20,987 bases of DNA, taken from a virus. Where the stretch lies: the IMG/VR virus record IMGVR_UViG_3300030099_006705, positions 1 to 20,987 of that record, one strand, 5' to 3'. Shown one piece after another: positions 5,760 through 17,587 of this stretch. Position numbers and translations under genes: made by a program. Below the pieces are notes generated by a model. That model was not told where the DNA came from. It ran no database searches and saw only the letters and a program-made list of their open reading frames with translations. How positions within the stretch are numbered: the first letter of the stretch is position 1; every line of letters starts with the position of its first letter.

Positions 5760-7081
5760 TGCCAGCTCAACAGAACGCACCAGCATCTCCTGGTAATATT
5801 TCAAAATTTAAAATTTCATCTAATGTCTCTGACAAGGCACTTGATTTATCAGGTGGTGTTGTAGAATTTAGATATTATGAGAGTGTATTATCTAACAATA
5901 TCACTGCAACTGCTGTCGTTGTAGATAGTGGTTACGAAGGTGATGCAGGAGCTGTCAAATCATCTAAGGGTGTGTTGGACTCTTTACCAATCAGAGGCGG
6001 AGAGAGAACAGATATTGCAGTTGAAGATAATATTGGAAATAAACTAAAATTTAAAGATGGATTGTATGTCAATAGAGTAAGAGATGCAGACCCTGGAACT
6101 CAGAAGGACGTGTTCTTTGTAGATTTTGCATCGAAAGAATTCTTTGCAAACGAACAACAGAGGGTGATGCAAAGATTTGAAGGTAAGATTTCTGAACATG
6201 TCAAAGAAATTATAGAAACCATCGATGGGGAGTTTGAGCAATTAGATAATACATCTTTGAGTTACAACTTCATTGGTAATGATAGAAAACCATTCTACAC
6301 TTGTACATGGTTAGCATCCAAGGCTGTGCCGGATAAAGATGTAGGTTCAAGAGCAGGATTTTTATTTTATCAAACCAGAGATGGTTTTAACTTTAGATCA
6401 ATTGATAAGCTCTTTGAGCAAGACCCAGTAAAGACATTTATATTCAACAACACGGGCGAAACACCACCCGAAGTTAATGCAAATGTTCTAAGTTATTCTA
6501 TCGATCAGGATGTTGATCTAAAACAAAACTTGACTCTTGGCACGTATAATAATAGATCTATCTACTTCAATCCATTCTCCATGGATTACTATGTGAAAGA
6601 GTACAAATATATTCCGGAAAATCTTGGGTCTGCTGGTAGATTCTTTGGTGGTGATATGGTGGCTGATGAGTTCACACTATCACCCACTAGATTGATGAGT
6701 CATGTATTTGATGTGGGTACGATGCCTAATGGAACGGGTAATGATCAATTTGATCAATGGAAGTCAGCCAAAACTGATCCTAATTATGACGCTGAGAACA
6801 CCATGGCTCAGTCGGTCATGAGATATAATCAAATGTTCTCAGTTAAAACAAATGTGACTATTGCAGCTGACTATAGTATCAAGGCTGGAGATATTGTCAA
6901 ATGCAAATTCCCAGAAGTACGTGGTGACAGAAAGGATGGGACCAACCCCCAAACAGATGGTATATATATGGTAGCAAGTGTGTGTCACCGGGTTACTTCA
7001 AGGGATAGTTTTACCAGACTAGCATTAGTCAGAGACTCCTTTGGAACTAAATCAGGATACAAATCCAGTAGTACGTATTAA
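5759..7081 (+). CDS. 27: Baseplate hub subunit gp27-like (440 aa)
   Basis: This protein resembles T4 gp27 (391 aa), the trimeric hub ring that joins the tail tube to the gp5 spike. It is a mixed beta/alpha protein without signal peptide. The segment AGFLFYQTRDGFNFRSIDKL at about residues 203-222 and the C-terminal beta part (GDIVKCKFPEV, then DGIYMVASVCHRV) fit the tube-like beta domains of the family. Both ends overlap neighbours by one base in TAATG (5759 and 7081), which suggests translational coupling in the order hydrolase, hub, spike. That order, with gp5 next, matches the physical contact between gp27 and gp5. The identification rests on resemblance and neighbourhood. Confidence 0.72.
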   Translation: MPAQQNAPASPGNISKFKISSNVSDKALDLSGGVVEFRYYESVLSNNITATAVVVDSGYEGDAGAVKSSKGVLDSLPIRGGERTDIAVEDNIGNKLKFKDGLYVNRVRDADPGTQKDVFFVDFASKEFFANEQQRVMQRFEGKISEHVKEIIETIDGEFEQLDNTSLSYNFIGNDRKPFYTCTWLASKAVPDKDVGSRAGFLFYQTRDGFNFRSIDKLFEQDPVKTFIFNNTGETPPEVNANVLSYSIDQDVDLKQNLTLGTYNNRSIYFNPFSMDYYVKEYKYIPENLGSAGRFFGGDMVADEFTLSPTRLMSHVFDVGTMPNGTGNDQFDQWKSAKTDPNYDAENTMAQSVMRYNQMFSVKTNVTIAADYSIKAGDIVKCKFPEVRGDRKDGTNPQTDGIYMVASVCHRVTSRDSFTRLALVRDSFGTKSGYKSSSTY

Positions 7082-9621
7082 TGATAGAACAAGGACTCTT
7101 TAAAAGATATTTTGTAGGTAGAGATGGATTCATTTGGTGGATCGGCCAAGTGGCTCCCGAATCAACTTGGAAAGATAATACACCTGGTTATCCTGTAGCT
7201 AATAATAGTGAGGTAAGGGGATTCTCGCAGAGATACCGTGTTCGTATCATGGGGTATCATACTGCAGACATTGGCGAGATACCTGATGAAGAACTACCTA
7301 TTGCATATGTAATGTATCCGATCACTTCTGGTAGTGGTGGTCGTGGAAGCACACAGTCGGCTAATATTGCACAAGGTGATTTTGTTTTTGGTTTCTTCTT
7401 GGATGGAGAAGATGCTCAGATGCCAGTCATCATGGGTATCCTTGGTAATAATCAATATGCTGCAGTTAGTAAAAATATCACTAAGGCAAGGTTCGTTCCC
7501 TTCAGTGGTTACACCGAGAATGATAATGTATCATCTACTTCATTGAATGTAGATAGGGGTAACGAAATTGTTAGACAGGAGGGTGCTAAAACACCTGAAG
7601 GTAAAAGTGACAATCAAGGTGATAAGACTGGTCAACCTAATAATGCAATAGTCAATGAGTCACAAAATACACCAGAACAAAAAGATGCGGCAAGCGAAGT
7701 AGCAGCAGAAGAAGAAACTAAACCCCTTGCACAAAGTGAAGATTGTGAACCATTACCAGTGGGTAGGATTCAAAAAGAAATTCAAAATATTATTGTTAAA
7801 ATTCAAAAGTTACAGAAGTCACTCTACAAATATTCTGGTGCAGTAAAGAATCGGTTCGGTGATATTCAGAAACAGATTGATAATGAAATTGAAAAGGTAA
7901 GCAAGTTAATTGCTGGAGGATTGAAAACAGTCTTCACGACCATAGAGAAGAATGTTCTTAATACTGTAAACAATGAGCTTAAGAAGACATATTTTCTTCT
8001 GTTCCCAAATGAAAGACCAGCATTGAAAGCAGCAGTTGAGACTGTGAATGATTTGATCGCATGTCTGTTCAGAAAATTCATTGGGGAACTTCTAGGACAG
8101 GTAGGTAATTTTGTAAGAGATGCAGTTAAGAAAGTAATTGATGTTGGTAAATGTCTTGTAGAGAATTTGATCGGAAACACACTTGGTAAAATACTCAAAC
8201 AGGTTCAGGATGGTATTAGTGGGGCTTTGAGTTCTGTTACATCACTTGTGGGACAGGCAACTAAAATTGCTGATGACATTCTTGGAGTCATTACAGATGT
8301 TCTTTCATTCCTTAAGTGTGATGAAGAACCTCAGTGTTCTGATGTAACTGAATGGAACATTCTTTCCGGTGGTAGGAAGACAAGCAAAGGTGATATTGAA
8401 AGTATAGTCGGGAATGCCAAGAATTTTGCTAAGGGATTTGAGACATCAGTTGATAATGCTGTTAATGCTGGAGAGGGTCTTAAAGAATCTATTGAAGATA
8501 CACTCAAGAATGATTTCAGTGAAGTCTTTAATGTATCTGGATGTGGAGTAGGCCCTATAGTCTGTGGTCCTCCTGTAGCTGAGTTCTTTGGTGTTGGAGA
8601 GGGAGCACTTGGTAATTTAATTATTGGTTCGGCTGGTGAAGTTATTGGTATCGATATGAAGAGTTTTGGTATCGGTTACGAGAAAGGGAAAACCTTTGGT
8701 AAGGTTAAAGACAACTGTGGTAAAGGTAAAGGGGCTGTAATCAAACCCATCGTTGAAGATTACACTGATGATGACGGTAATACACAGACTGGTATAGTTG
8801 ATATTGAGATTGTTTATTCTGGTACCGGATATCTACCTGCACCTGATGGAAGTAGAGGTGGTAATGAATATACTTGGGCTGACCCCGAAGATACCATTGT
8901 CAAGAAACCTAATGGTGACTATGAAATTCCAAGACCACCCGGTAATGTGATTGTGGTTGGTCCTGGAGATGAAGTGATCACTCCACCTGGTACAGTTATT
9001 GTTACTGAACCTATTGATGGTGATCAAGGTGGTGGTGAGGAAATTAGAGGTGGAATTCCTACTATACTTGAAGGTCCTGGTGTTATCACATCTCCTAAAC
9101 CAGACTTCAGTAGACAATCAGCTATCTATCCAACTGAATCTACCGGCTCTTATCCTGTCATCATGTATCTCTGTGAAATATTCATCGATGATAGTGGTAT
9201 CAATTACAACTTTGAGGATAAGGTTGTGATTGAACCAGACATCGGAGCAAAGGCAGAGCCCAAGTTTGATAATCAGGGACGGGTCATATCTGTTAAGGTC
9301 ACTGTACAGGGTGAGGGATTCACAGAATTGCCAAGGGTTTACATTAAATCCGAAACAGGTTATAATGCTCAATTGAGACCCAAACTCTGTATAGATAGAG
9401 TCGGGTCAGACAAACTCAAGGAACCAACATCTCAGGATAAAGTTATTTCAGTTGTTGATTGTGTGGGTCTTATTCCTGTTGGTTTCGTAAAAGGTGTTCC
9501 ATATTACGGACCCTTCCACGCACACCCCTCTAGAGGTGTCAAAATGGTAGGAGCCAAACATGTATCTACACCACATGAGGTGATTTATGATTCAGCAGAA
9601 GAAAGTTTACGTAATTCCTAA
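7081..9621 (+). CDS. 5: gp5-like baseplate central spike/hub protein lacking the lysozyme domain (846 aa)
   Basis: The N-terminal 130 residues fit the gp5 OB-fold: WWIGQVAPEST, RYRVRIMGYH, IPDEELPIAYVMYPITS and FGFFLDGEDAQMPVIMGILG align with T4 gp5 landmarks such as IPTEKLPWMSVIQPITS. After a polar linker (about 150-225) there is a coiled coil at about 229-303 and a long amphipathic helical region to about 400. I see no T4-type lysozyme domain. The second half is beta-rich and contains two related strands with a G-x-G-Y/F motif (VYSGTGYLPAP near 580, VQGEGFTELP near 745). It ends in a conserved tail (PFHAHPSRGVKMVGAKHVST). The product likely forms the trimeric spike under gp27. Lytic activity probably comes from the two upstream proteins instead. 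Confidence 0.78.
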   Translation: MIEQGLFKRYFVGRDGFIWWIGQVAPESTWKDNTPGYPVANNSEVRGFSQRYRVRIMGYHTADIGEIPDEELPIAYVMYPITSGSGGRGSTQSANIAQGDFVFGFFLDGEDAQMPVIMGILGNNQYAAVSKNITKARFVPFSGYTENDNVSSTSLNVDRGNEIVRQEGAKTPEGKSDNQGDKTGQPNNAIVNESQNTPEQKDAASEVAAEEETKPLAQSEDCEPLPVGRIQKEIQNIIVKIQKLQKSLYKYSGAVKNRFGDIQKQIDNEIEKVSKLIAGGLKTVFTTIEKNVLNTVNNELKKTYFLLFPNERPALKAAVETVNDLIACLFRKFIGELLGQVGNFVRDAVKKVIDVGKCLVENLIGNTLGKILKQVQDGISGALSSVTSLVGQATKIADDILGVITDVLSFLKCDEEPQCSDVTEWNILSGGRKTSKGDIESIVGNAKNFAKGFETSVDNAVNAGEGLKESIEDTLKNDFSEVFNVSGCGVGPIVCGPPVAEFFGVGEGALGNLIIGSAGEVIGIDMKSFGIGYEKGKTFGKVKDNCGKGKGAVIKPIVEDYTDDDGNTQTGIVDIEIVYSGTGYLPAPDGSRGGNEYTWADPEDTIVKKPNGDYEIPRPPGNVIVVGPGDEVITPPGTVIVTEPIDGDQGGGEEIRGGIPTILEGPGVITSPKPDFSRQSAIYPTESTGSYPVIMYLCEIFIDDSGINYNFEDKVVIEPDIGAKAEPKFDNQGRVISVKVTVQGEGFTELPRVYIKSETGYNAQLRPKLCIDRVGSDKLKEPTSQDKVISVVDCVGLIPVGFVKGVPYYGPFHAHPSRGVKMVGAKHVSTPHEVIYDSAEESLRNS

Positions 9622-12196: not shown

Positions 12197-12252
12197 CGTG
12201 AATTTATCAGTATGGATATGTAATGAACTAATACTACCTAATACGAAATTAC

Positions 12253-12567
12253 ATGCCATTAACACCAACCAAATACGACAAAATATACGTAAAATCCAGA
12301 AATCCTTACAAAACACCAGAGCCTGTTAAATACAAGGAAGAGAAAGAAATACAACTAAGGTTGTATTTTAGGTGTGAGTCCAGTCATTACACTAAACATA
12401 TGAAGGTAAATTTCTGGTATTCCAATGAAATGGAAGAATGGAGGTGGACACTTACCTCCGATGAGAATCTTTCACTACAAGAAAGTGGAAATAGGGAGAA
12501 TATTCGTGATGCGATGAATGATGTAGCTGATACCGTAGAGTATCTAATTGACAATGATCTATTATAG
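12253..12567 (+). CDS. Hypothetical protein (104 aa)
   Basis: ATG 12253 is the first in-frame start after the intergenic gap; no strong ribosome site is seen. The protein has a basic, Tyr/Pro/Lys-rich N-terminus (PTKYDKIYVKSRNPYKTPEP), a beta-rich middle with aromatic residues (QLRLYFRC, KVNFWYSNEMEEWRWTL) and an acidic C-terminal helix (RDAMNDVADTVEYLIDNDLL). There are no catalytic motifs, membrane segments or signal peptide. I do not recognise the family. Its 3' end carries the -35 box of a perfect sigma70 promoter, so gene and promoter overlap. Expression is probably from the weaker promoter at 12142-12169. Confidence 0.6.
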   Translation: MPLTPTKYDKIYVKSRNPYKTPEPVKYKEEKEIQLRLYFRCESSHYTKHMKVNFWYSNEMEEWRWTLTSDENLSLQESGNRENIRDAMNDVADTVEYLIDNDLL

Positions 12568-12576
12568 TGTTATAAT
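12548..12576 (+). promoter_or_regulatory. Perfect-consensus sigma70 promoter
   Basis: TTGACA (12548-12553), a 17-bp spacer and TATAAT (12571-12576) are the exact E. coli sigma70 consensus at optimal spacing. Transcription should start near 12583. The -35 box lies in the last codons of the 104-aa gene. No start codon with a ribosome site lies before the terminator at 12618-12644, so the immediate product would be a short RNA. Confidence 0.75.
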
Positions 12577-12582
12577 ATAGTT

Positions 12583-12644
12583 AACCTTCCGTGTGAATAG
12601 TGCCACTCTGTGGTATAGGGATCCCAACTTGGGGTTCCTTTTTT
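12583..12644 (+). ncRNA. Candidate phage small RNA (about 62 nt)
   Basis: The unit is defined by the perfect promoter upstream and an intrinsic terminator downstream, with no plausible ORF between. The predicted transcript has two hairpins. The first is TGCCAC/GTGGTA around a TCT loop (12601-12615, one G-U pair). The second is the terminator stem with its U-tract. A single-stranded 5' part rich in pyrimidines (about 12583-12600) could pair with a target. The alternative is a constitutive promoter with a terminator acting as attenuator for the 1633-aa gene. That gene has its own late promoter just beyond, so I favour a separate sRNA. Confidence 0.5.
12618..12644 (+). terminator. Intrinsic terminator
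   Basis: GGATCCC (12619-12625) pairs with GGGTTCC (12632-12638) with one T-T mismatch and a 6-nt loop, followed by six T residues (12639-12644). It ends the putative small RNA and would also stop read-through from the small-ORF island before the late promoter at 12649. Confidence 0.75.
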
Positions 12645-12648
12645 ATGT

Positions 12649-12656
12649 AATAAATA
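12649..12656 (+). promoter_or_regulatory. T4-type late promoter (AATAAATA)
   Basis: The octamer fits the NATAAATA late promoter described for T4-like phages, where the T4 consensus is TATAAATA. It begins 37 nt before the start codon of the 1633-aa structural gene and directly follows the terminator. The same spacing recurs at the other two rightward late promoters in the window. Confidence 0.7.
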
Positions 12657-12685
12657 TCTAATAATAGATATCGTGTGCAAGACAG

Positions 12686-15600
12686 ATGCCATTATCTCGT
12701 TTAGATAACTTTCTGAAGAATGTAAAAGGAAATATTCTCTATGTTGATCCCAACAACTTAGATGCCACCGATGGTATCGAGAATCAGGGTAATTCATTTG
12801 CTAGACCTTTTAAGACTCTTCAAAGAGCTTTAATTGAATCAGCTAGATTTTCCTATCAGAAAGGAATTGATAATGATAGGTTTGAAAAGACTACAATCTA
12901 CTTGGCACCCGGAACGCACCATATTGACAATAGGCCCGGATGGATTCCAATAGCAGCTAATTCTTTCAGACTTAGAAGTGGTGTTACTTCAAACGATTTT
13001 CCTGCATTTAGTAACACTTCTAACTTTGATATCTTTGACAGTAATAATGCCCTGTATAAACTGAATAGTATTCACGGTGGTGTAGTAATTCCCCGTGGCA
13101 CATCTATTGTTGGACAGGATTTGAGAAAATGTATTATCCGTCCAATCTATGTTCCAAATCCAGAAAATGATTTGATCGAAAGATCAGCCATCTTTAGGGT
13201 GACTGGTACAACTTATATGAATAGTTTTACCATTAAAGATGCAGATCCTCAAAAGGCATGTTATAAGGATTATAGTACAAATACATTTAAAGGAACATTC
13301 TCTCATCACAGACTGACGGTATTTGAATATGCCGATGGTAAAAATAATGTAAACATAAAAGATGACTTCATTAATTACGTAACAGATCGCACTGATCTGG
13401 AAATGTATTATGAGAAGGTCGGTTTAGTATATGGTCCTGCAAGTGGAAGAGAGATTGAACCCGACTTCCCAAGTGCAAATGTAGACATTCAACCTAGAAT
13501 TGATGAATTCAGAATTGTCGGTCCTACAAAAGGAACATCAGGTATCACTAGTATCAAAGCTGGTGATGGTGTCACCCCAACATCTGTGATTGATGTTCAA
13601 CTGTCCACTGCTATCTTTGGTCTGAATATTGATACTGAAGTTATCATCAATAATGTAACAGATACAAGATACAATGGAACATTCTTGGTCACTGAGGTAA
13701 CCTCAACCACTGATGCTGGAGTGACAGGATTTAAATATGAAGTCCCAGTATCACCGGGTGATCCTCTCCCTAATCCAAGTGGAACCAGTGTAGATCTATC
13801 AACTGATACGGTAACCAGTGCATCACCATATATCTTTAATTGTTCTGTCAGAACACTATATGGTTTGTGTGGTATGCATGCTGACGGCTCGAAGGCCGAT
13901 GGATTTAAATCTATGGTTGTAGCCCAGTATACAGGAGTTGGACTTCAGATTGACGACAATGCATTTGTAAAATATAACTCGTCGAGTGGTGCATTTGACG
14001 ATAAACTTACAATACCTAATCTACACACAGACATTAATGCAATATATAAACCTTCATACAGTAATTTTCATATCAAGGCATCAAACAATAGTTTGATTCA
14101 ATTGGTATCAATCTTTGCAATTGGATACTCAAACCAGTTCTTAGTAGAGTCTGGAGCTGATTTTTCTGTTACTAACTCAAACTCAAACTTCGGTCAAATT
14201 GCTTTAACTTCAAGAGGATATAAGAATAATGTATTCTCTCAGGATGATGTTGGATATATCACTCAAGTTATTCCTCCTAGAACTCTTGCACCTGAGAACG
14301 CAACAATTGAATTTTCGTCATTAGATATCACTAAAACCACATCGGTCGGGGACACCTCCAGATTATATCTGTATAATTTTGAAAATCAGGATGATATACC
14401 TAATAGCATCATTCAAGGATATAGATTTGGTGCTAAGAATGATGAGAATATCAATGTTGTATTTCCAGTTGGTGGCACTCCCACGACATTCCGTGCCAAA
14501 GTGGTCATGGACGATACTGCATATGCCACCAACAAAGCTTCTGGTAAAAAGGTAATGAGAGTCGGTAGAAATGTTTCTACTGGTAATAGTATTACAGGTT
14601 CAACATTAACCTTTACTCAGGATCATCAACTTAGTCAAGGAGAAACAGTCAGAATTATCTCCAATGATGGAAGATTGCCCGATGGTCTTGACCCTAATAT
14701 TGTTTACTTCTCAATTGTTGATGGATTGGGAGGTAATCAGATGCAGATTGCCCGATCATTCAATGATGCTCTATCTGGAAACAAAATTACTATTAACAAT
14801 CTAGGCGATACTTTGATTGTTGAAAGTAGAGTAAGTGATAAGATAGCTGGTGATATTGGTCACCCAATTCAATATGATACCACAAATACTCAATGGTATG
14901 TTAACGTATCATCTGCATCCACTGAGAATAATCTATATGCTAAAATGATTAGTGGTGGATTAGGAGATGCCTCACCAAGAAGTTTCTTCACCAGATTGAA
15001 AGATTCAAGACAATCTAATGATAGGATTCACAAAGTAAGATTTGTAATTCCATCGACTACAGGATCCGAATCAGCAAGACCACCTCTTGATGGATACATT
15101 ATTCAGGAGTCTGGTGATGTATCTGGCACAAACGATACTGAGGTTGCACTGGAGTTTAATCCTGGTTCAGTGACTATGAGTAATGATTCTCAGATGAGAA
15201 ACTTTAGTTTTATCGCTAATGTAGATTACAAAGCAGGTCTTGCTCATTATACCACAGAAAAACCACATGGACTTTCAATCGGTTCAAGTGTAGAGATTGC
15301 AAACGTTACAAGCACACTATTCCCTGTTGCTGGCGTTGGGCAGTCTGGTTTTAATGGTGTGTATGAAGTTACTGGAATTACAAGTGCAAGAACATTCTCA
15401 GTAAATCAAATCGCGTCGTCACCTGGAACCTTTACTAACAATACTTCAACAAGAACAACGTCTCTTCCAACTGTCAAGAGAAAGAATTATAGTAGAAACT
15501 ACTATGTTTATGATGTTGAAGAAATTAATACTTATAAGAATGGTGAGCAAGATGGTATCTATTATCTCAGTGTATTGAATGCTGATGTTAAACCCACTGT

Positions 15601-17587
15601 TGCTCCATTTAATTCAATTGATTATTCTTTCTCTCAACCAGTTCAAAATCTTTATCCTCAACTTGACAGAGATAATCCAAAATCAACTGCAGAATCCTCA
15701 TCATGTCATGCACCTGCGAGGTTGATTGGTGAGAGAAATATAAATGATCCCCTTAACAGTATCACCGGTGAAACTATTGAAGATTTCTTCACAGAAACCG
15801 GAATTGGAGTAGGTATCACTGATATTGTAAGTAATAATGTTGGAACTGCTTACACCATCTTCACTGATCATGATCACGGTCTCAATAGGATTACTAAACC
15901 TGTTATCGATAATCCTGGTGCAGGATATGGAGATGGAACATCCACCATTCAGTATTTCTATAATGCAACACTAGAAAATACAGGTGCAGGATCCATCGGT
16001 AGACATGGTACAGCACTTGTTACTGTTGATGGAACATCATCCGGTGAAATTATTGATATTGCTATCATGGATGGTGGAAGCGCTTTCGTTGCAGGTGACA
16101 CCTTCAAAGTTGTTGGTATTGCAACAACAACAGGCTTCACTGCTGCCACAGGTTCGATTAATAAGACCTACAATAACCTGGGTGATGTTATCTCAGTTTC
16201 TGGTATCAACGATTTTGACGGTAGAAGCTTTAATTCTGATTATAAAATCACCTCTGTTCCGGCAATCAATGAAGTTGAGGTTGTTCCACTAGCAGCAACT
16301 TCTCCTGGTATCGCAACAGCAGGTCTAGGAAATGTTGTATCAGATCCAGGATCATTCTCGATAATTGGACCAGCGTTTGATACGAATAATTTTGTTTATA
16401 ATAAAAATGTGGGTCTTGCCACAGTCACCACAGACTTTGCTAATAATTTCAGAGTCAATAATAGTGTGACGGTAAGTGGTGCTGCTCAAACATTCTTCAA
16501 CGGGTCTTTCATCTGTGTTAATAAAATTGGACTGACCACTGTTGTTCTGAATGTTGGTGTCAATACCGTAACACCCTCAACATCTGGTACTATTCAACTT
16601 CATAGTAACGGTCTACAAAATAATGGTGGTGACATTGTTGTTGGAAGTGGTGTTCTTCATGGAAGAGAACAACCCATCTATGCAGGTATTACTACCACTC
16701 TATCTGCTGCAATCTCTAGTAAAACAACTGACACTATCAATGTCAACAATATGACGGAATTTGGTTTCCTGATTGGAGACTATATTCAAATTAATGATGA
16801 AATCATGAGAATTAAGACCACCGTGAGTCGTGTGGGTGGAACAACACAATTGAAAGTCTTTAGAGCAGTATATGGCACTATTGCAGGACTTCATGATGTT
16901 GGATCTGTGGTACAGAGAGTCAGATTCTATCCTATTGAGTTTAGAAGAAACTCCATTATTAGGGCATCTGGTCATACATTTGAATATGTTGGATATGGAC
17001 CAGGAAATTACTCCACTGCATTCCCAGATAGACAGACAAAACAATTGACAATTGATGAGGAGATTATCTCTCAATCACAAAAAATGGCTGGAGGTGTTGT
17101 AAATTACACCGGTATGAATGATAGAGGTGACTTCTATATTGGAAATAAGAAAGTTGCTTCTAACACTGGTAGAGAACAAGTCTTTGATACTCCAGTTCAA
17201 ACTGTTACCGGTGAAGATCCATTTGCAAGTGGTTCAACTGATGACCTCAGTAACTTCAATTACTCAGAAAGTTCTACCGTTAAGATCAGTAGAAATCTTG
17301 TCGTGAATGGTGGTGACAAGACCAATATCCTCTCCGAGTTTAATGGTCCTGTCCAATTTACCCAGAAGGTTGTAAGCACGTCATCTGAAGGAGTTGAAGC
17401 GAATAGTTTGTTTATTCAGGGTAATGCTCAGGTATCAAGAAAGATTACTGTTGGTATTGCTACTCCTAGTGAAACTGGAACTCCTGGTGATATTGTCTTC
17501 CATGCCAATCCCACCACAGGCGGAACTGTCGGTTGGGTATTTACCACTGGTAATGTTTGGAAGGAGTTCGGAACAATTGCCAGTTGA
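12686..17587 (+). CDS. Large virion structural protein, beta-helix/tail-fibre-like (1633 aa)
   Basis: The N-terminus (MPLSRLDNFLKNVKGNILYV) and the following FKTLQRALIEASRF-like segment with TTIYLAPGTHHIDNRPGW are typical of a large structural protein conserved in T4-like cyanophages. The fold looks like a pectate-lyase-type parallel beta-helix over the first 500 residues (VVIPRGTSIVGQDLRKCIIR). The rest is beta-rich and contains a degenerate repeat with core FNGxFxV (about residues 315-355, 868-908, 1171-1200 and 1258-1290). The C-terminus is a conserved GTPGDIVFHANPTTGGTVGW motif. No enzyme site is visible. Size and late promoter suggest a baseplate-attached fibre or adhesin; some homologues are annotated only as virion structural protein. 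A gp10-like wedge role is possible but not shown. Confidence 0.7.
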   Translation: MPLSRLDNFLKNVKGNILYVDPNNLDATDGIENQGNSFARPFKTLQRALIESARFSYQKGIDNDRFEKTTIYLAPGTHHIDNRPGWIPIAANSFRLRSGVTSNDFPAFSNTSNFDIFDSNNALYKLNSIHGGVVIPRGTSIVGQDLRKCIIRPIYVPNPENDLIERSAIFRVTGTTYMNSFTIKDADPQKACYKDYSTNTFKGTFSHHRLTVFEYADGKNNVNIKDDFINYVTDRTDLEMYYEKVGLVYGPASGREIEPDFPSANVDIQPRIDEFRIVGPTKGTSGITSIKAGDGVTPTSVIDVQLSTAIFGLNIDTEVIINNVTDTRYNGTFLVTEVTSTTDAGVTGFKYEVPVSPGDPLPNPSGTSVDLSTDTVTSASPYIFNCSVRTLYGLCGMHADGSKADGFKSMVVAQYTGVGLQIDDNAFVKYNSSSGAFDDKLTIPNLHTDINAIYKPSYSNFHIKASNNSLIQLVSIFAIGYSNQFLVESGADFSVTNSNSNFGQIALTSRGYKNNVFSQDDVGYITQVIPPRTLAPENATIEFSSLDITKTTSVGDTSRLYLYNFENQDDIPNSIIQGYRFGAKNDENINVVFPVGGTPTTFRAKVVMDDTAYATNKASGKKVMRVGRNVSTGNSITGSTLTFTQDHQLSQGETVRIISNDGRLPDGLDPNIVYFSIVDGLGGNQMQIARSFNDALSGNKITINNLGDTLIVESRVSDKIAGDIGHPIQYDTTNTQWYVNVSSASTENNLYAKMISGGLGDASPRSFFTRLKDSRQSNDRIHKVRFVIPSTTGSESARPPLDGYIIQESGDVSGTNDTEVALEFNPGSVTMSNDSQMRNFSFIANVDYKAGLAHYTTEKPHGLSIGSSVEIANVTSTLFPVAGVGQSGFNGVYEVTGITSARTFSVNQIASSPGTFTNNTSTRTTSLPTVKRKNYSRNYYVYDVEEINTYKNGEQDGIYYLSVLNADVKPTVAPFNSIDYSFSQPVQNLYPQLDRDNPKSTAESSSCHAPARLIGERNINDPLNSITGETIEDFFTETGIGVGITDIVSNNVGTAYTIFTDHDHGLNRITKPVIDNPGAGYGDGTSTIQYFYNATLENTGAGSIGRHGTALVTVDGTSSGEIIDIAIMDGGSAFVAGDTFKVVGIATTTGFTAATGSINKTYNNLGDVISVSGINDFDGRSFNSDYKITSVPAINEVEVVPLAATSPGIATAGLGNVVSDPGSFSIIGPAFDTNNFVYNKNVGLATVTTDFANNFRVNNSVTVSGAAQTFFNGSFICVNKIGLTTVVLNVGVNTVTPSTSGTIQLHSNGLQNNGGDIVVGSGVLHGREQPIYAGITTTLSAAISSKTTDTINVNNMTEFGFLIGDYIQINDEIMRIKTTVSRVGGTTQLKVFRAVYGTIAGLHDVGSVVQRVRFYPIEFRRNSIIRASGHTFEYVGYGPGNYSTAFPDRQTKQLTIDEEIISQSQKMAGGVVNYTGMNDRGDFYIGNKKVASNTGREQVFDTPVQTVTGEDPFASGSTDDLSNFNYSESSTVKISRNLVVNGGDKTNILSEFNGPVQFTQKVVSTSSEGVEANSLFIQGNAQVSRKITVGIATPSETGTPGDIVFHANPTTGGTVGWVFTTGNVWKEFGTIAS

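Follow-up and report, generated by a model that had tools for sequence, protein, structure and literature searches.

The locus described here raises the question of why a phage should keep a promoter and a terminator only some sixty bases apart, just upstream of a tail-fibre gene, and on what the RNA made between them might act. It lies in the window, as we call the whole 20,987-base stretch analysed, a virus record carrying tail and baseplate genes of T4-like cyanophage type. The first-pass annotation had proposed that a perfect sigma70 promoter and a GC hairpin with a T run define an undescribed small RNA of about 62 nt, placed just before a late promoter in a virion gene region, and these points are borne out below. 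The features concerned, all on the plus strand, are:

12253 to 12567, plus strand: small ORF of 104 aa, phrog_2818 (no assigned function), ending ..EYLIDNDLL* and containing the -35 box
12548 to 12576, plus strand: sigma70 promoter TTGACA-N17-TATAAT with extended -10, conserved in relatives
12583 to 12644, plus strand: predicted 62-nt small RNA, starting 7 nt past the -10 box and ending with the T run
12585 to 12597, plus strand: CCTTCCGTGTGAA, exact antisense to the anticodon loop and 3′ anticodon-stem strand of tRNA-Val(CAC), RNA nt 3-15
12599 to 12615, plus strand: decayed antisense (by alignment) to the positions before the anticodon arm and to the D-arm, AGTGC and then CTGTGGTA against CTGTGCTA
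12617 to 12644, plus strand: intrinsic terminator, AGGGATCCCAACTTGGGGTTCCT plus T run, 10-bp stem and 3-nt loop
12648 to 12656, plus strand: T4-type late promoter-like element TAATAAATA of the tail-fibre gene (from sequence), conserved in relatives
12686 to 17587, plus strand: tail-fibre gene, phrog_529, the downstream context of the RNA unit

The promoter boxes (TTGACA at 12548-12553 and TATAAT at 12571-12576, separated by 17 nt, with a TG at 12568-12569) form the only 12/12 match among the 49 promoter-like sites of the window; at one mismatch or fewer there are two sites, where shuffles lead one to expect 0.29. A second near-consensus promoter, TTTACA-N17-TATAAT (11/12), is found at 9338-9366, within the baseplate hub/lysozyme ORF at 7081-9621. 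The terminator stands first among the 15 terminator-like sites listed for the window, and the region 12583-12650 has a folding energy of -21.5 kcal/mol (z -2.6), a value equalled by 3 of 200 shuffles. A stricter scan for promoters paired with terminators returned this one unit in the window and 1-5 per cyanophage genome of ~180 kb. As expected of a trans-acting antisense sRNA, the window unit has its own promoter and its own terminator.

The further claim that no ORF lies between the two signals holds for the plus strand, on which 12583-12644 contains no ORF of at least 40 aa, but on the minus strand a 75-aa ORF (12570-12797), for which we found no support, overlaps the unit. Because the -35 box falls inside the last codons of the upstream small ORF, whose ..EYLxDND.. 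end is kept in relatives, the box is partly codon-constrained; where the upstream gene differs in relatives, either the -35 box is retained or other promoters take its place. No Rfam family, including Cyano-1 (RF01701), matches the predicted RNA, and in the window as a whole nothing reached its gathering score, the only hit at E up to 5 being a weak one to Atu_C8 (18.9 bits against a cut-off of 50). The region 5′ of the tail-fibre gene (12198-12686 in the window) is variable: in six relatives it holds tRNAs (Leu, Thr, Pro, Asn, Ala), 2OG-Fe(II) oxygenases and small ORFs.

The stems of the RNA vary between relatives, and its conserved part is the unpaired 5′ segment, which a covariance search for kept stem pairs, as the annotation proposed, would pass over. 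Here the annotation had suggested a role in regulating host or phage mRNA, or as a decoy; the conserved segment is instead antisense to a host tRNA, tRNA-Val(CAC). In the window, CCTTCCGTGTGAA is an exact 13-nt antisense and the only match of at least 11 nt to this tRNA, and about 0.002 such matches would be expected by chance at RNA positions 3-15 over all 41 tRNAs. It is a variant of an exact 15-mer, GTGTGAAGGAAGTGC, and includes the anticodon-loop complement GTGTGAA (12591-12597), in which GTGTGA rather than GTGTCA distinguishes the CAC from the otherwise similar GAC isoacceptor. In the RNA sequence the conserved GUG immediately precedes UGA. The decayed stretch that follows, at 12599-12615, is predicted to fold alternatively into a small hairpin, GTGCCAC-TCT-GTGGTAT.

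Relatives were gathered solely by their tail-fibre protein, and a 95-nt stretch 5′ of the gene was matched against the RCC307 tRNA set in antisense. In 41 of the 57 distinct relatives, which share ancestry and so are not independent trials, the stretch carries 11-17 nt of exact antisense to tRNA-Val(CAC), one of 41 host tRNAs; every other host tRNA reached at most 10 nt in these rows, the opposite strand at most 11 nt and shuffled sequences at most 10 nt. The predicted RNA of ~62 nt likewise stands up in relatives, which keep promoter, start position and terminator while the terminator sequence changes. Thus the Synechococcus phages RN05-S and S-B05 (80% identity over the region) retain the promoter and the terminator position with a different hairpin sequence and have the 5′ segment CCGTGTGAAGGAAG in common, and S-B43 and RB11-B show the same match. 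In a minority, ~16 of the 57, the tail-fibre gene is present and the unit at that site is absent or degenerate, so the RNA is common there rather than universal. Most relatives with the flanking genes keep promoter and terminator, and the minority loss argues against an essential role at the tail-fibre site, not against the RNA itself.

A scan of viral contigs for GTGTGAAGGAAGTGC returned at least 120 stretches, from which 105 distinct ones were analysed. Among the matches listed, 88 of the 105 have a sigma70-like promoter with the motif at the predicted transcript start (6-8 nt from the -10 end in 79 of them), a spacing with which the predicted start at 12583 agrees, and 8 further contigs have a T4-type late promoter. 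A terminator follows the motif in 64 and a tRNA gene in 29 of the 105, again among the matches listed. The promoter spacing together with these downstream elements places GTGTGAAGGAAGTGC at the 5′ end of short predicted transcripts. Early, high expression, as had been foreseen, is plausible where the promoter is of the sigma70 class; several relatives, however, use the late promoter, so that timing is not uniform. In six contigs with the unit after gp23 the promoter class switches and the RNA stays: at the same position some phages have a sigma70 promoter and others one of the T4-type late class (TGTGATATAAT versus TGATCTAAATA).

The unit occurs 5′ of the tail-fibre gene, near gp23 and at the head of tRNA clusters (e.g. 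S-SKS1); in S-SM1, Syn9, S-SSM5, S-PRM1, S-8S53 and S-CAM9 it lies directly or slightly downstream of this major capsid gene. The complete phages that we checked have one clear copy each or none. Of 19 Synechococcus phages, 14 have the unit and five have no recognisable copy, as against 0 of 9 Prochlorococcus phages with it (Fisher p 0.0006), several of the Synechococcus phages having been found via similarity to the window; in the subset picked by name alone the counts are 4 of 9 and 0 of 7. The Prochlorococcus phage P-SSM4 (NC_006884) has a late promoter near 120163 on the plus strand, together with CACGTGTGAAAAGGGGAAGG and a terminator, which may be a degenerate relative of the RNA.

On the host side, 201 genomes of the Synechococcus/Prochlorococcus family were sampled; 112 of them have a single exact copy of GTGTGAAGGAAGTGC, and the reversed pattern, used as a control, occurs in none. 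All 30 host copies that we fetched are the antisense strand of the tRNA-Val(CAC) anticodon arm, GGGCGATTAGCACAGCGGTAGCGCACTTCCTTCACACGGAAGGGGTCACTGG.., and Rfam confirms a tRNA in 18 of them. A homologous host sRNA was considered and rejected: the host genomes have the single copy, and it lies within the tRNA gene itself. Among 24 inspected host genomes without the 15-mer, the small ones have tRNA-Val(GAC) and/or tRNA-Val(UAC) and no tRNA-Val(CAC), which is thus absent from the Prochlorococcus-size genomes inspected, and a wider pattern survey agrees; in five larger genomes tRNA-Val(CAC) is present with a diverged arm. Four phage copies (GTGTGAAGGATGC) fit the common host arm less well than a variant arm, GCATCCTTCACAC, which is suggestive, though these are too few for us to claim co-variation with divergent host tRNAs.

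Host and phages also differ in how much they use the codon concerned. GUG makes up 58% of valine codons in RCC307 (160 kb sample) and 8-13% in phages, or 39.6 versus 5-9 per 1000 codons. Phages that do not have the RNA, including Prochlorococcus phages, are equally GUG-poor, so the low use is not an adaptation to it. The tRNA genes on the phage contigs include tRNA-Val(UAC) 17 times; two phage contigs have a tRNA-Val(CAC) gene, and in these the match to the motif is that very gene.

We favour the reading, with a probability of roughly 0.6, that the unit encodes a short antisense RNA with which the phage captures the host's tRNA-Val(CAC), so that less GUG is decoded. The wider proposition, that many T4-like cyanophages make a dedicated sRNA of this kind to switch off GUG decoding, an RNA-only, codon-selective host shut-off favouring AT-rich phage messages, seems to us about an even bet. 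The case for the anatomy of an antisense RNA unit is strong; from it we infer the physiological effect, from transcription and binding in the cell through charging and translation to a benefit from lost GUG decoding, which would run as follows. Transcription by host RNA polymerase would run from about 12583 to the terminator and yield a 62-nt RNA whose 5′ end is accessible, and the loop complement GUGUGAA of this RNA would pair with the anticodon loop UUCACAC of host tRNA-Val(CAC). Pairing would extend to one strand of the anticodon stem and, in the window copy, patchily to the D-arm. The bound tRNA would be unable to read codons and, since valyl-tRNA synthetase recognises the anticodon, probably could not be charged, so less GUG would be decoded. 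The GC-rich messages of Synechococcus/Cyanobium, in which GUG is the main valine codon, would be hit far harder than AT-rich phage messages, whose rarer GUG codons could be read by tRNA-Val(UAC), often phage-encoded. Masking of tRNA-Val(CAC), costlier to the host than to the phage, would be the most economical model for these sequences. Several points weigh against this reading: what we call Type A pairing requires the host anticodon stem to open; the tRNA is very abundant, so that the RNA would have to be plentiful or act on a sub-pool; and the phages themselves retain their 5-9 GUG per 1000 codons.

With the same RNA and the same target, the pairing could instead protect tRNA-Val(CAC), for instance from a host anticodon nuclease, or hold it in reserve. 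All the sequence data would fit this equally, the pairing spans precisely the anticodon loop at which such nucleases cut, and T4 has two enzymes for the repair of an anticodon cut by PrrC (PMC3014915). We nevertheless consider protection unlikely: a tRNA with its anticodon covered would be unusable while bound, and GUG decoding is hardly needed by the phages. In addition, we know of no nuclease specific for tRNA-Val(CAC) in Synechococcus-type hosts.

The position of the antisense directly before a terminator (64 of 105) or at the head of a tRNA cluster (29 contigs, among the matches listed) would also suit a cis-acting sensor, in which tRNA-Val(CAC) binds the nascent 5′ end, alters termination and so sets the expression of the downstream gene or tRNA cluster. 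Like a T-box leader, such an RNA would touch the anticodon of one specific tRNA; a T-box, however, combines a 3-nt specifier with recognition of the tRNA 3′ end and a switching terminator, whereas the phage RNA has 13-17 nt of antisense and no visible switch, and the T-box family of Rfam has no match in the window at gathering score. No alternative antiterminator pairing of the 5′ segment with the terminator is visible by eye, the virion genes downstream vary and come with a late promoter-like element of their own right past the terminator, and copies in tRNA clusters lack a terminator, all of which makes a sensor rather improbable. A recurrent 5′ leader or antitermination element, suggested by the motif's position before terminators and tRNA clusters, was dropped, as the 15-mer is tRNA antisense. 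In seven of the tRNA-cluster leaders a conserved element, GGCACCGTGCCTGTGAAGGGAAACCTGAGGCTGGGTAAGTCCTC, stands between the anti-tRNA motif and the first tRNA, and in four others a different conserved stretch, TGAGAGTGATGCCAAAAGTAAGGCACCCCGACAAGGGATACAGTAGAAGGATGCGAAACC, lies 3′ of the motif; Rfam gave no match to the former in three copies or to the latter in one.

The extent of the antisense differs among copies. Those of the window, S-CAM9 and RN05-S cover the 5′ half of the tRNA, and those of S-SCSM2R and two contigs (L338 and L345) the 3′ half, including acceptor and T-arm patches; other copies have the 15-nt core, and the anticodon-loop complement is present in nearly all. That several copies align with gaps to at least half of the tRNA, as if from a full-antisense ancestor, would be expected of a relic, that is, a decayed tRNA-Val gene in reverse orientation (such as an old attachment site) with a promoter and a terminator unrelated to it. 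In 40 copies scored for the mirrored anticodon stem, however, the left strand is kept in 11, the right in 27, neither in 2 and both in 0, and the loop complement is retained while the remainder decays. Since the complete antisense of a hairpin would fold into a hairpin too, losing one strand keeps the RNA open, and we read the retention of a single strand as a sign of selection for an accessible anti-anticodon sequence. Furthermore, the start site is set on the loop complement across contexts and promoters, T4-type late promoters included; in most copies the match is to the anticodon arm, whereas an attachment site would share the 3′ end of a tRNA gene beside an integrase, and the genes seen nearby are structural ones and tRNAs. 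We therefore give the relic little credence. Little can be said either for mere gene-boundary signals, namely the terminator of an upstream operon and a stray promoter making no functional RNA: the hairpin could indeed also end upstream transcription, and codons overlap the -35 box, but promoter-terminator units are rare in these genomes and the anti-tRNA segment keeps its place at the start site from one context to another.

Returning to antisense capture, the predicted folds and pairing energies bear on both the accessibility of the segment and its choice of target. With the predicted start sites the antisense segment is ~0.9 unpaired, and with up to 12 nt upstream of the motif included it is 0.54 unpaired, so accessibility depends on the correct start site. 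By these computations the RNA has a conserved, accessible segment complementary to a target RNA encoded elsewhere. In duplex energies, which leave internal structure out of account, the 5′ part of the window RNA reaches -41.2 kcal/mol with tRNA-Val(CAC) and -31.3 with the next tRNA, Val-GAC; its shuffles average -18.9 kcal/mol (sd 3.5), and 0 of 1000 do as well as the tRNA-Val(CAC) duplex. In Syn9 the duplex energy of the whole RNA fails to set tRNA-Val(CAC) apart, and a 17-nt exact match to this tRNA is the longest found in that genome. In complete phages, a genome-wide scan for the longest match to any tRNA is uninformative by itself, because ~200 kb yields chance matches of 14-16 nt, and becomes informative only when combined with promoter and terminator; in eight complete or near-complete phage genomes we found no convincing anti-tRNA units for other tRNAs.

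Another target altogether, an mRNA or the host sRNA Yfr1 (the Yfr1 core, ACUCCUCACAC, is complementary in part to GUGUGAAGGAAGU), is the least probable of the alternatives considered here. The 5′ motif GUGUGAGGAGU of Cyano-1/Yfr2-like RNAs is similar to the phage motif, and Yfr2 antagonises Yfr1 (PMC6778093); but the window 5′ part pairs with Yfr1 at -19.3 kcal/mol, far less well than with the tRNA, the tRNA match is 15/15 and bulge-free, and the copies of the window, S-SCSM2R and L345 keep tRNA complementarity beyond the Yfr1-like part. A Yfr1 sponge, the initial idea from GTGTGAAGGAAGT, was rejected because the duplex is weaker and the variants do not track Yfr1. Chance or artefact is ruled out by conservation in relatives.

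To our knowledge, no natural sRNA targets a mature tRNA by plain antisense pairing, and a survey, not exhaustive, of open-access full-text literature turned up no phage RNA antisense to a tRNA. The novelty is the target class, a tRNA, base-pairing sRNAs as a generic idea being already known. Host leucine tRNA was reportedly inactivated on infection in early work on T-even phages. As there and with PrrC (PMC3014915), infection would alter the use of one host tRNA; there, however, a protein cleaves the tRNA, whereas the phage RNA would act by base pairing. By analogy, the nearest functional parallel is CreT, of the type VIII toxin-antitoxin system CreTA, an RNA that depletes one specific host tRNA by trapping tRNA-Arg(UCU) through AGA codons on the ribosomes it recruits (PMC12737573). 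CreT is cellular and works through codons, whereas the phage RNA is viral, has no ORF and is directly antisense to the anticodon arm; a short ORF with a strong ribosome-binding site and codons for the target tRNA, as in CreT, was not found in 12583-12644.

If true, our reading suggests a previously unnoticed viral means to disable or control part of the host translation machinery. It would amount to a new strategy in which a virus reshapes the host tRNA pool by silencing one tRNA and supplying others; where the RNA heads the phage tRNA cluster itself, as it does in some phages, RNase P could free it along with the replacement tRNAs. It would also bear on host range and codon bias in one of the ocean's most abundant virus-host systems.

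Yfr2/Cyano-1 (RF01701) resembles the phage RNA as a short, abundant cyanobacterial RNA whose 5′ segment pairs with another sRNA, and differs from it in target, pairing length and the rest of the molecule. Two RCC307 loci are of interest here: the Yfr1 core resembles a truncated form of the anticodon arm of tRNA-Val(CAC) (ACUUCCUUCACAC), and a Cyano-1 (Yfr2-like) RNA has at its 5′ end GUGUGAGGAGUGC, which resembles a shortened antisense of the same arm. These resemblances may be due to chance or may possibly hint at the origin of the host RNA pair.
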